A stretch of 53,354 nucleotides of DNA from Roseococcus sp. (GTDB taxonomy: Bacteria; Pseudomonadota; Alphaproteobacteria; Acetobacterales; Acetobacteraceae), in the NCBI RefSeq assembly GCF_019747315.1, contig NZ_JAIEQY010000046.1, positions 1-53,354 on the forward strand, read 5' to 3'. The number at the start of each line of letters is the position of its first letter. Within the stretch, counting starts at the first letter, position 1. Under the pieces are notes generated by a model, which saw nothing but the letters and a program-made list of their open reading frames with translations, had not been told where the DNA came from and did no database searches. Shown here piece by piece: positions 7,580 to 45,267 of the stretch. The position numbers and the translations under genes were made by a program.

Positions 7580-7698
7580 GCCCTTGTCGAGAGGCTGATT
7601 CGTGCTTTTGGCGATTTCACCAGAAGCGATCAGGCTCTAACATCTAACGGATTTGACCGCGCCCGCGGGCGCCGGATTGTGAAGCGAGGTTCTGGCCG

Positions 7699-16507: not shown

Positions 16508-18319
16508 ATGAACGCCATCAGCAAGCCATCCTTCGGGGCCTATCGGGTCGTCGATCACACCTATGACGTGGTGGTGGTCGGCGCCGGTGGCGCCGGGTTG
16601 CGCGCCACCTTCGGCATGGGGGCTTCCGGCCTCAAGACGGCCTGCATCACCAAGGTCTTCCCGACGCGCAGCCACACCGTGGCCGCCCAGGGCGGCGTCG
16701 GCGCGGCCCTGGGCAACATGGGCGAGGATGACTGGCGCTGGCACATGTACGACACCGTGAAGGGGTCGGACTGGCTGGGCGACCAGGACGCCATCGAATA
16801 CATGTGCCGCGAGGCCATTCCCGCCGTCATCGAGCTCGAACACTACGGCGTGCCCTTCAGCCGCACCGAGGATGGCCGCATCTACCAGCGCCCCTTCGGC
16901 GGCCACATGCAGGATTACGGCAAGACGCCCGCCATGCGCGCCTGCGCCGCCGCCGACCGCACCGGCCATGCCATCCTGCACACGCTGTATCAGCAGTCGC
17001 TCAAGCATGGCTGCGAGTTCTTCGTGGAATACTTTGCGCTCGACCTCATCATGGATGATGAGGGCGTCTGCCGGGGCGTGACCGCGTGGAATCTGGAAGA
17101 CGGCACGATCCATCGCTTCCGCGCGCAGAAGGTGGTTCTCGCCACCGGCGGCTATGGCCGCGCCTGGTTCTCCTGCACCTCGGCCCATACCTGCACCGGC
17201 GATGGCGGCGGCATGGTGCTGCGCGCGGGCCTGCCCCTGCAGGACCAGGAATTCGTGCAGTTCCACCCGACCGGCATCTATGGCGCGGGCTGCCTCGTGA
17301 CGGAAGGTGCCCGCGGCGAAGGCGGCTACCTGACGAACTCCGAGGGCGAGCGCTTCATGGAGCGCTACGCGCCGACCGCGAAGGACCTCGCCTCGCGCGA
17401 CGTCGTCTCCCGCGCCATGTCGGTGGAAATCCGCGAGGGCCGCGGTGTCGGCCCGCTCAAGGATCACATCCACCTGCACCTGGAGCATCTGGGCGCCGAC
17501 ATCCTGCATGAGCGCCTGCCCGGCATTTCCGAGACGGCGCGCATCTTCGCCGGCGTGGATGTGACGAAGGAGCCGATCCCGATGCTCCCCACCGTCCACT
17601 ACAACATGGGCGGCATTCCCACGAACATCCACACCGAGGTGCTGCGCCCCACACGCTCCGACGAGGACGCGATCGTCCCCGGCCTGATGGCCGTGGGCGA
17701 GGCCGCCTGCGTCTCGGTGCATGGCGCGAACCGCCTGGGCACCAACTCCCTGCTCGACCTCGTGGTGTTCGGCCGCGCCGCCGCGCATCGTGCGTCCGAG
17801 ACGGTGAAGCCCGGCGCCTCGCAGCCGCCGCTGCCGCCGCGCGCGGGCGAAGGGAGCCTCGATCGCTTCGACCGCATCCGCCATGCCAAGGGCAGCACCG
17901 GCACGGCCGAGCTGCGCCTGGCCATGCAGCGCACCATGCAGACGCATGCCGCCGTCTTCCGCACCTCCGAGTTGCTGAAGGAAGGCGTGGACAAGATGAA
18001 GGGCGTGCATGCCGGCATGAGCGACCTCAAGGTCGCCGACCGCAGCCTCGTCTGGAACACGGACCTGGTGGAGGCGCTGGAGCTGGACAACCTCGTCGGC
18101 AATGCGATGACGACCATCGTGGGTGGCGAGGCGCGCAAGGAAAGCCGCGGCGCCCACGCGCAGGAAGACTATCCGGACCGCGATGACGCGAACTGGATGA
18201 AGCACACGCTGGCCTGGATGAATGAGAAGGGCGAGGTGAGCCTCGATTATCGTGGCGTGAAGATGCGGACCCTCACCAACGAGGTCCAGGTCTTCCCGCC
18301 CAAGGCACGGGTGTACTAG
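16508..18319 (+). CDS. sdhA: Succinate dehydrogenase flavoprotein subunit
   Basis: A 603-residue catalytic subunit that oxidises succinate to fumarate. The FAD-binding [12 protein letters not shown] is near residue 20. SHTVAAQGG contains His56, the expected site of covalent FAD attachment. [23 protein letters not shown] and SREIREGRG-type active-site blocks follow, and the C-terminus has the usual [18 protein letters not shown]. Normal length. The stop codon lies within the left arm of a strong stem-loop, described separately. It belongs to complex II of the TCA cycle and respiratory chain. Confidence 0.98.
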
Positions 18320-18367
18320 GCCATGCGCCGCTCGCATGCGCTCGCGGCACCTGGCCTAGCCTTTTTT
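18316..18367 (+). terminator. Intrinsic-type terminator between sdhA and sdhB
   Basis: CTAGGCCA (18316-18323) pairs perfectly with TGGCCTAG (18352-18359), with a further inner GCCGC/GCGGC stem. A run of six T (18362-18367) follows after two bases. The sdhA stop codon is part of the left arm. This is the clearest intrinsic-terminator structure in the window, yet it lies inside the sdh gene set. Confidence 0.75.
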
Positions 18368-18424
18368 GCGAGGCCGATTCACGGCTTCGGTTGCAAGCAA
18401 CCCCAGCCGATCGGACTCTGAACG

Positions 18425-19207
18425 ATGGCCACGTTTACTCTTCCCAAGAACTCCACGATCACGAGCGGCCAGACGCATAAGGCGCCCGACGGCGCGACCA
18501 ACGTCAAGGCCTTCAAGATCTACCGCTGGGATCCGGATGATGGGGCCAATCCCCGCACCGATACCTTCGAGCTCGATCTCGACAAGTGCGGGCCGATGGT
18601 CCTGGACGCGCTCATCAAGATCAAGAACGAGGTGGACAGCACGCTCACCTTCCGGCGTTCCTGCCGCGAGGGCATTTGCGGCTCCTGCTCGATGAACATT
18701 GACGGGCTCAATACCCTCGCCTGCCTCAAGCCGATTGATGAGGTGAAGGGCGATGTCCGCATCTCCCCCCTGCCCCACCTGCCGGTGGTGAAGGATCTGG
18801 TGCCGGACCTGACGCAGCTTTACGCGCAGTATCGCAGCATCGAGCCCTGGCTGAAGTCCGAGACGCCGCCGCCGCCCGATGAGGAGCGCCGCCAGTCGAA
18901 GGAAGAGCGCGCCAAGATGGACGGCATGTGGGAGTGCATCCTGTGCTTCTGCTGCTCCACCTCCTGCCCCAGCTATTGGTGGAATGGAGACCGCTATCTG
19001 GGCCCCGCCATCCTGCTCGCTGCCTATCGCTGGATCAGCGACAGCCGCGATGACGCGACGGGCGAGCGGCTGGACAATCTGGAAGATCCCTTCCGGCTGT
19101 ATCGCTGCCACACCATCATGAACTGCACGCGGACCTGCCCGAAGGGGCTGAACCCGGCCGAGGCGATCGGCAAGATCAAGACGATGATGGTGGCGCGGCA
19201 GGGGTAG
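18425..19207 (+). CDS. sdhB: Succinate dehydrogenase iron-sulfur subunit
   Basis: A 260-residue electron-transfer subunit. The [2Fe-2S] cysteines are in [15 protein letters not shown] and the following LAC. The [4Fe-4S]/[3Fe-4S] motifs are [13 protein letters not shown] and [14 protein letters not shown]. It passes electrons from the SdhA flavin to the membrane subunits. It is 105 bp after sdhA, across a terminator-like hairpin, so it may also be read from its own promoter. A short GGTTGC-AA-GCAACC repeat lies just upstream of its start. Confidence 0.98.
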
Positions 19208-19212
19208 CTCTC

Positions 19213-19319
19213 GGGGGCCTTGCCCTCGAACCCCCAGCAGGAAACTCAGTTTCCTGCACCTTCGACAGATATGGGTGCAGGGAACGTGTTCCCTGCTGGG
19301 GGGTTCGGGGGGCAAAGCC
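19213..19319. repeat. Composite palindromic repeat after sdhB
   Basis: Two arms of about 47 bp (19213-19260 and 19273-19319) are imperfect reverse complements. Each arm also contains its own perfect 9-bp hairpin: GCAGGAAAC/GTTTCCTGC (19237-19257) and GCAGGGAAC/GTTCCCTGC (19277-19296). It lies just past the sdhB stop and looks like a REP/BIME-type intergenic element. It may terminate or protect the sdh transcript. No second copy was seen in this window. Confidence 0.7.
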
Positions 19320-19445
19320 GCCCGCTGCCTGAAACACAGGCACCCGGCAACTCAACGCGGCCGTCCCCTGTCCAAATCCTATAGACACACCCCTAAACGC
19401 TTCGTCATGCTGCGGCACCAACCACAGCATTCCGGGATATTCAGC

Positions 19446-32435: not shown

Positions 32436-32547
32436 CAAGCTGATCATCAGGCCATCCCGGAGCAACCGGGAGGCCAATCCGAGCCTGATCGCCTTTGGCG
32501 GCACCGCCAAAGGCGTGAATCAGTCTCGCAGAAAGGGAGGAATGACG

Positions 32548-43665: not shown

Positions 43666-43910
43666 GGCACGGCTTCCACGGCAGAGATCTCATGCGTCAC
43701 GGTGTGGCGCGTGACCTTCAACCACTGCCGGCAACCGGCGGAATGCTGCCACCATTCGGTGTGCCAGCCGCGCGGATTCTTGCGGCTGTAGACGTAATCC
43801 ACGAAGGCGTCGGGATCGTCGCTGGTGGGGCGCATCACCGTCGCGTCGCCCCGATAGCTGAACTCGGTTTCATCGCGCACGCCACAGTAAGGGCACTTGA
43901 TCTGGAGCAT
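43662..43910 (-). CDS. soxD: Sarcosine oxidase delta subunit
   Basis: An 82-residue zinc-binding subunit. CPYCG at residues 6-10 plus later Cys and His residues (WWQHSAGC) are the usual zinc ligands. FVDYVYSRKNPRGWHTEWWQ is strongly typical of SoxD. It lies between soxB and soxA, the standard position, and is 103 bp after soxB. Confidence 0.96.
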   Translation of the reverse strand: MLQIKCPYCGVRDETEFSYRGDATVMRPTSDDPDAFVDYVYSRKNPRGWHTEWWQHSAGCRQWLKVTRHTVTHEISAVEAVP

Positions 43911-43974
43911 CGCTAGCGTCCGATCCGCTGAGGGAGCCTGCGACCGAAGCGGTTGATCGGCCGCTCAACCAAGG

Positions 43975-44019
43975 CAATGACCAGCGCCGCGAACGCATGT
44001 GAGTGGCGCATGGTCATTG
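43975..44019 (-). repeat. Imperfect inverted repeat at the soxB 3' end
   Basis: CAATGACCAGCGC (43975-43987) is nearly the reverse complement of 44006-44019 (one extra base). The right arm includes the soxB stop codon. It may form an mRNA hairpin in the soxB-soxD gap. Confidence 0.4.
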
Positions 44020-45267
44020 CATCCAGAAGAAGGGGCCGGCGCCCTTCTCATCCAGCATGCGGCCCTCCTTGAAGCGGGTGAGCGTATAGGCGGCGTTGAG
44101 CCGATGCGGTTCCTGCTTCGCCATGGTCCAGGCGTGGCACCAGCCGGAGCCGGGCGTGGCCTTGAACCCCCCGTAATTCCAGCCCCCCGTGAGCGTCAGC
44201 CCCTTGATCGGCGTGAGGCAGATATAGGGCGAGGCATCGGGCGTCATGTCCATTACCCCCGCCCAGGAGCGCAGCGCGCGCACCCGCTTCAAACCCGGCA
44301 TGAGCGAGGCGCCGGCGGCGAAGATATGCTCCGCCTCCGGCAGCGTGCCGCGCTGTCCGTAGGAGCTGTAGCCATCCAGGCCGCCGCCAAAGACCAGCCC
44401 GCCCTTGTCGGATTGGCTGATGTAGAAATGCTGCGCGCCGAAGGTGATGACGTGGTCGATCAGCGGCTTCAGCCCCTCGCTGACGAAGGCCTGCATCAGG
44501 TGGCTTTCCACCGGCACGGTCAGCCCGGCCATGGCGCAGAGCACGGAGGTGTTGCCCGCCACCGCCAGCCCCACCTTGGGCGCCATGATGTCGCCGCGCG
44601 TGGTGCGCACGCCCATTATCGCGCCGCCCTCGATGATCATGGAAGTGACTTCGCAATGCTCGATGATGTCCACGCCGCGCGCATCGGCGGCATGGGCGAA
44701 GCCCCAGGCCACGGCGTCATGCCGCGCCGTGCCGCCGCGCCGCTGCAACAGGCCGCCCATCACCGGGTAGCGCGCATTGTCGAGGTCGATCAGCGGGCAC
44801 ATGGCCTTGACCTCCGCCGGGCCGATCAGCTCGGCATCGATGCCGGCCAGGCGCATGGCATTGCCGCGGCGGGTGAAGGCGTTGCGCTGCGCGTCGCTGT
44901 GAAACAGGTTCAGCACGCCGCGCTGGCTCATCATCACATTGTAGCCGAGCGACTGCTCCAGCCCTTCCCAGAGCTTCAGCGAATGCTCGTAGAAATGATG
45001 GTTCTCGGGCAGCAGGTAGTTGGAGCGCACGATGGTGGTGTTGCGCCCGGTATTGCCCATGCCGATGGGCCCGCGCTCCAGCACCGCCACATTGGTGATG
45101 CCGTGGATGGAGGCGAGGTAGAAGGCCGTGGCCAGACCATGCCCGCCGCCGCCGATCACGATGGCGTCATAGGCGGGCTTGGGCTCGGGCTTGCGCCAGG
45201 CGGGGCGCCAGCCGGAATTGCCGGTGAGCCCTTCGGTCAGGATGCGAAAGCCGGAATAGGACGCCAT
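44014..45267 (-). CDS. soxB: Sarcosine oxidase beta subunit
   Basis: A 417-residue flavoprotein carrying the active site. DAIVIGGGGHGLATAFYLA (about 34-52) binds FAD. GMGNTGRNTTIVRSNY follows, and RGGTARHDAVAWGFA contains His183, which aligns with the His that covalently holds FMN in this family (my alignment by eye). The C-terminus has GGWNYGGFKATPGSG. It is the first gene of soxBDAG. No good ribosome binding site is visible before ATG 45267, but the N-terminus fits the family. The divergent esterase gene shares the 126-bp upstream region. Confidence 0.96.
   Translation of the reverse strand: MASYSGFRILTEGLTGNSGWRPAWRKPEPKPAYDAIVIGGGGHGLATAFYLASIHGITNVAVLERGPIGMGNTGRNTTIVRSNYLLPENHHFYEHSLKLWEGLEQSLGYNVMMSQRGVLNLFHSDAQRNAFTRRGNAMRLAGIDAELIGPAEVKAMCPLIDLDNARYPVMGGLLQRRGGTARHDAVAWGFAHAADARGVDIIEHCEVTSMIIEGGAIMGVRTTRGDIMAPKVGLAVAGNTSVLCAMAGLTVPVESHLMQAFVSEGLKPLIDHVITFGAQHFYISQSDKGGLVFGGGLDGYSSYGQRGTLPEAEHIFAAGASLMPGLKRVRALRSWAGVMDMTPDASPYICLTPIKGLTLTGGWNYGGFKATPGSGWCHAWTMAKQEPHRLNAAYTLTRFKEGRMLDEKGAGPFFWMQ

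Follow-up and report, generated by a model that had tools for sequence, protein, structure and literature searches.

Based on sequence comparison, the feature between sdhA and sdhB is almost certainly a composite REP-like insertion of about 102 bp, consisting of a hairpin (module A), a U tract and a second hairpin (module B), which together occupy the space between the sdhA stop codon and the sdhB start codon. Module B is a member of a dispersed, often high-copy family of palindromes in the Acetobacteraceae. A fuller reading, in which this composite REP-like insertion additionally has a partial polar effect on sdhB, appears rather probable to us.

Two hairpins at the sdhA-sdhB junction

In the window, by which we mean the whole stretch of 53,354 nt that was analysed, sdhA (flavoprotein subunit, 603 aa; Pfam FAD_binding_2 and Succ_DH_flav_C) occupies positions 16508-18319 of the plus strand and ends in a TAG stop codon at 18317-18319. 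The ORF of sdhB (iron-sulphur subunit, 260 aa; Pfam Fer2_3) follows on the same strand at 18425-19207. Module A (18316-18359, plus strand) has a perfect 8-bp outer stem, CTAGGCCA/TGGCCTAG, at 18316-18323/18352-18359, the 5' arm of which includes the sdhA TAG, and an inner stem GCCGC/GCGGC. The hairpin is followed by CC (18360-18361) and by a T6 tract (18362-18367, plus strand), which is a T5 tract in one related genome, G009. The original prediction had described the perfect 8-bp outer stem, the inner stem, the six T and the placement of the sdhA stop codon within the stem, and inspection of the letters together with folding confirmed each of these elements.

A 56-nt stretch containing module A folds with -28.3 kcal/mol, compared to -17.8 +/- 2.5 kcal/mol for shuffled sequences (z -4.2; 0 of 200 shuffles as low), and in a second run, over 55 nt, z was -4.1 and 1 of 300 shuffles reached as low an energy. 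Module A therefore offers the stable GC-rich hairpin and the U tract 3' of the stem that are expected of a terminator, and, as modelled, it could terminate transcription in the window's own genome (G000 in the genus comparison). Like intrinsic (Rho-independent) terminators, it has, at the end of a gene, a GC-rich stem and then a U tract; it differs from these in being large, mismatched, located inside an operon and lineage-specific, and in that its copy at the sox locus has no U tract. A mechanical terminator scan did not list the sdhA/sdhB site, probably because the scan permits loops of at most 8 nt. The second hairpin, at 18370-18418, has z -3.0 (2 of 200 shuffles as low) and ends 6 nt 5' of the sdhB ATG; it lies within the copy of module B at 18365-18422 (plus strand), which scores 68.7 bits with the module B model R1.

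A search for sdhB succeeded in 20 of the 21 genomes of the genus, including the window's own. The gap between sdhA and sdhB is 105 nt in four of these 20 loci (G000, G009, G012 and G015), and at most 15 nt in 14 loci; in G007 and G010 it contains other ORFs and measures 316 and 359 nt, respectively. By comparison of junctions, sdhA runs almost directly into sdhB in most relatives of the clade. Two species that fall within the clade of the four insert carriers read TAG-GCC-ATG (G014) and TAA-GCC-ATG (G005) at this position, and these junctions look like exact empty sites. The existence of two relatives without the insert suggests that it may be dispensable. Our sdh tree comprised 19 of the 20 loci (G003, with a gap of 12 nt, was left out) and gave no firm root for the six-species clade, so one gain followed by two losses is not separable from repeated gains. 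The original prediction of an attenuator in the sdh operon had proposed comparison with close relatives as a check, and this went against it: the insert is missing from 16 of the 20 congeneric loci, the two apparent exact empty sites among them, and the hairpin has decayed in one of the four loci that contain the insert. An assembly error is an unlikely source of the insert, because four genomes carry it, one of which is a single 4.9-Mb contig.

The sdhA-sdhB junction resembles an insertion hot spot. Among the sdh loci of 80 named relatives, the gap is at most 20 nt in 34, 21-60 nt in 33, 61-200 nt in six and more than 200 nt in seven; model R1, which represents module B only, had no match at E 0.01 in these loci. 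Three relatives (L020, L037 and L057) contain Cas2-like ORFs (Pfam PF09827) within the gap, with two matches above the cut-off and one below, L037 and L057 having been scanned as partial sequences. We take these ORFs to be VapD-like. A weak MqsA-like ORF, below the cut-off, was seen in the gap of L078.

A dispersed palindrome family in the Acetobacteraceae

When the insert was used as a query across the genus, module B turned up at numerous unrelated positions, and soxB/soxD of G014 proved to have a complete copy of both parts. We built the covariance model of module B from 46 chosen copies, which were picked by a script that required partial pairing together with a portion of the bulge sequence and that tolerated a pair at the position of the purine mismatch. 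As modelled, module B is 56 nt long in 52 of 84 copies, 7 nt of these flanking, and its structure comprises 18 pairs, a UCA bulge and a mismatch. The bulge reads UCA in 79 of 84 copies, and 92.3% of cells in the model are paired compared to 79.0% in shuffles; these bulge and pair figures overstate the support, because the seeds were selected for such features and the hits are biased towards the model. The two segments of the lower stem are separated by a purine-purine mismatch in 82 of 84 copies (GG in 35, GA in 35, AG in 11 and AA in one). The covariation score of the stem is 0.303 compared to 0.091 in shuffles, with 0 of 500 shuffles as high. Two other counts, of pairs with both partners changed (9 versus 7.4; 50 of 500 shuffles as high) and of further pair types (21 versus 21.2; 325 of 500 shuffles as high), are not distinct from shuffles.

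At E 0.01, module B has matches in all 21 genomes of the genus, from a single match in G008 to at least 152 in G019. There are 46 matches in the window's own genome, and at least 149-152 in G003, G019 and G020, which come close to the limit of about 150 candidates scored per genome; seven of the 21 have just 1-18. The covariance model search found four copies above 40 bits in the window. In addition to the copy at sdh, these are located at 43912-43969 (minus strand, 62.5 bits), at 32477-32532 (minus strand, 61.9 bits) and, in a divergent form, at 7586-7641 (plus strand, 41.3 bits). An Rfam scan of the window gave only four tRNA matches above the gathering threshold and none at the insert; sub-threshold miRNA matches marked an inverted repeat at 19213-19322, directly 3' of sdhB. 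Beyond the genus, module B was found in 48 of 150 sampled genomes of the family, representing 35 of 102 genera, with three of the 48 from the same genus as the window. In a class sample of 190 genomes it was found in two, namely the window's own and, as one weak match, among the 189 others. These family and class searches scored up to 37 and 29 candidates per genome, respectively, with filters stricter than those of the genus search.

The genomic context of module B was derived from an ORF heuristic, without annotation, for the top-scoring hits of four genomes. Among 68 places, 27 have converging genes on either side, 22 and 14 have genes of the same direction (in either orientation) and three have divergent genes, with two unclassified; module B falls inside a heuristic ORF at seven places. 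Using 56 of these 68 places, after tandem places were dropped, we observed a hairpin with z < -2 in the 60 nt directly 5' of module B at 16 of 56 single-copy places, compared to five of 56 directly 3'; the sdh place, with z -1.9 in this survey, is outside the 16. Modules A and B are a recurring pair, though not an obligatory one. The paired unit is also present at soxB/soxD in the window (43911-44020, minus strand) and in G014, and in G012 with tandem copies of module B. At this junction in the window, the second module A (43974-44020, minus strand; stem GCAATGACCA/TGGTCATTGC) contains the soxB TGA and has no T tract, and module B is positioned directly 5' of soxD (ATG at 43910), the product of which was confirmed by Pfam. 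A further unit, in G017 (L153, 1434-1532), is located between sdhD and sdhA and has a perfect 15-bp stem that holds the sdhD stop codon. The stop codon of the upstream gene is thus inside the module A stem at sdh, at sox and at sdhD/sdhA of G017. The stop at L175 closes a coding-like frame truncated by the end of the contig; at L170, the frame leading up to the TAG does not resemble coding sequence. Template-switch correction of quasi-palindromes can yield a stop codon in a stem. Stop codons supplied by the element, such correction and selection all predict this arrangement, so the position of the stop codon is not proof of selection.

Module B agrees with the generic description of REPs in being palindromic with a common consensus, in its many dispersed copies and in its extragenic position between same-direction or converging genes, and it exceeds the generic size of 20-40 bp. 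According to the passages of the RepRanger paper (PMC12306157) cited here, REPs and module B are alike in being extragenic, palindromic and multi-copy with a common consensus and in lying partly within operons; some REPs of E. coli separate two genes of one operon, and some are at most 15 nt from the upstream stop codon, a further likeness to module B and the insert. By contrast with the REPs of 14-40 nt described in those passages, module B measures about 56 nt as modelled, 7 nt of which are flanking, and has a conserved UCA bulge, a purine mismatch and, at part of the places, a second hairpin A before it (PMC12306157).

Two tagged REP superfamilies were compared with module B. The cited part of PMC3733652 describes the CGTC REPs of Alphaproteobacteria as having no dedicated transposase and as lying mostly between converging or same-direction genes, near 3' ends; module B is likewise alphaproteobacterial and mostly found between such genes. 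In the same part of that survey (Di Nocera 2013; PMC3733652), the Acetobacteraceae are among the families in which CGTC repeats are missing. CGTC is present at the expected end in just 23 of 84 module B copies, and the structure of 18 pairs, UCA bulge and mismatch does not fit the stem and loop part of the rule given there, which asks for an 8-9-bp stem, a 4-5-nt loop and a CCA tail (PMC3733652). GTAG REPs, as that part of the survey presents them, resemble the insert in that they are dispersed palindromes able to abut or supply stop codons (PMC3733652); GTAG, on the other strand, is near the end examined in just nine of 84 module B copies. We class module B as a REP-like variant that falls outside the CGTC and the GTAG superfamilies. 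A RAYT-driven REP was considered as well and found no support: Y1_Tnp (PF01797) occurs in one of the 21 genus genomes, and the loci of its three matches contain no module B. The Rickettsia palindromic elements RPE-4 and RPE-6 are similar to the insert as palindromic inserts that can be read within a reading frame; in the account cited they reside inside ORFs, whereas the sdh insert is located between two complete ORFs (PMC3733652). In the open-licence literature, searched by subject terms, we found no REP-like family of the module B type in the Acetobacteraceae.

Constancy of module B and expression of sdhB

Across the four sdh inserts, module B is variable at 1 of 54 sites. Module A, with 16 variable sites out of 42, differs from it (p about 3e-6) and resembles the third codon positions of the adjacent ends of the coding regions, of which 73 of 200 vary (p about 2e-8 for module B against these positions); the constancy of module B is weaker against all coding sites, of which 92 of 600 are variable (p 0.004). 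The six pairs of sdh copies of module B have 0-1 differences in 54 positions, whereas four other comparisons of corresponding copies, two of them at sox, show differences at 5, 7, 5 and 8 out of 56-58 positions. Judging from these substitutions, the conserved part of the sdh insert is module B rather than hairpin A. The near-invariance of the sdh copy suggests a role in the expression of sdhB since the insert was gained. Alternatively, repeated recent insertion combined with a hypermutable palindrome A could produce uniform copies of module B, and the insert would then be a neutral, selfish one without effect on expression. The high copy number in several genomes, the lack of the insert, with what looks like a clean junction, in two close relatives and the unrelated inserts at the sdhA-sdhB junction of other species are all consistent with such neutrality; the conservation of the sdh copy relative to third codon positions and to module B copies elsewhere argues against it, and we regard it as unlikely.

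If the composite insertion is partially polar on sdhB, as we prefer, its two hairpins would most likely behave as an intercistronic REP within the sdhCDAB transcript. Hairpin A with its U6 would cause partial termination or a 3'-end block past sdhA, and hairpin B would fold directly 5' of the sdhB start. Ribosomes that end translation of sdhA would sit on the 5' arm of hairpin A and could restart at an ATG 3 nt further on, a spacing from stop to ATG that equals that of the empty sites. Restarted ribosomes would read through both modules to a TGA 3 nt before sdhB, probably melting both hairpins. Because of this restart and read-through, sdhB would stay expressed, probably below sdhA. The possible coupling ORF (18323-18421, plus strand, ATG to TGA) spans modules A and B, and it starts 3 nt past the sdhA stop, has 32 codons and ends 3 nt short of the sdhB ATG in all four sdh copies. 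In all three sox copies, an ORF starts 2 nt past the upstream stop and ends 2 nt short of the next ATG; these ORFs have 32, 32 and 64 codons, the tandem module B units at soxB-soxD of G012 (L143) still forming one open frame of 64 codons. Frames are equally open in 69% (sdh) and 79% (sox) of shuffles of the same sequences, so this openness is not above chance.

A more far-reaching proposal is that a copy of the REP-like family has been exapted as the sdhB leader, with module A as a terminator opened by ribosomes and module B as a constrained initiation hairpin, the two forming a translation-gated attenuator. We consider this doubtful. If it is true, the stoichiometry of SdhB would be set by the insert, and the copy at soxB/soxD would act likewise there.

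We are sceptical, too, of a dedicated intrinsic terminator or attenuator that sets the SdhB:SdhA ratio, for which the end of sdhA could form an antiterminator fold. The strong hairpin with its U6 points in this direction, and in the minimum-energy fold of 18300-18430 the sdhA end pairs with the 3' arm of module A, forming a competing fold. The best fold of 60 nt including the sdhA end likewise joins this end to the 3' side in G000, in G009 and, through another partner, in G012. G015, which keeps the hairpin without a competing fold, counts against such an attenuator. The intrinsic-type terminator of the original prediction was borne out as far as the hairpin and the U tract are real and G000 and G015 have a strong hairpin A; it is weaker in G009 (z -2.8), and in G012 it is no better than shuffles (z -0.3). 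Compensatory changes, which had been named as a check, offered limited support, since in G009 both partners of two base pairs are altered but two further pairs are broken. The presence of the insert in just four of the 20 congeneric loci and the lack of a T tract in the sox copy also speak against a dedicated attenuator.

It is improbable that the insert carries a promoter or leader from which sdhB is transcribed apart from sdhCDA. Module B is nearly invariant directly 5' of sdhB, and a full terminator alone would starve sdhB, which has one match in the window's own genome at E 1e-60; on the other hand, a simple consensus scan of 18200-18500 found no sigma-70-like site, and copies of module B elsewhere are often 3' of converging genes, as at the 27 places counted above. 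That the insert ORF encodes a functional small protein common to the sdh and sox copies is highly improbable: it is open in all seven copies and its C-terminal reading (RPIxxxG..IGx) is similar in both, but this candidate is weakened by the openness of shuffles and by the substitution pattern (nine amino-acid-changing and two silent variable codons in module A, with free amino acid change in the N-terminal half), the ORF has no Pfam match up to E 1, and the frame is not kept across the module B family because the lengths of the copies differ by non-multiples of three.

Implications for the sdh operon and the family

In conclusion, a puzzling terminator in a core metabolic operon is explained here as the footprint of a repeat insertion. 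We describe a dispersed palindrome family in the Acetobacteraceae, a family of bacteria listed, in the cited part of the 2013 survey, as being without CGTC repeats (PMC3733652). The main interest lies in this repeat family, in the filled and empty junctions and in the unusual constancy of module B at sdh. Closely related species with filled and with empty sdhA-sdhB junctions provide a natural test of the effect of an intercistronic REP on an operon that must supply its products in equal amounts.
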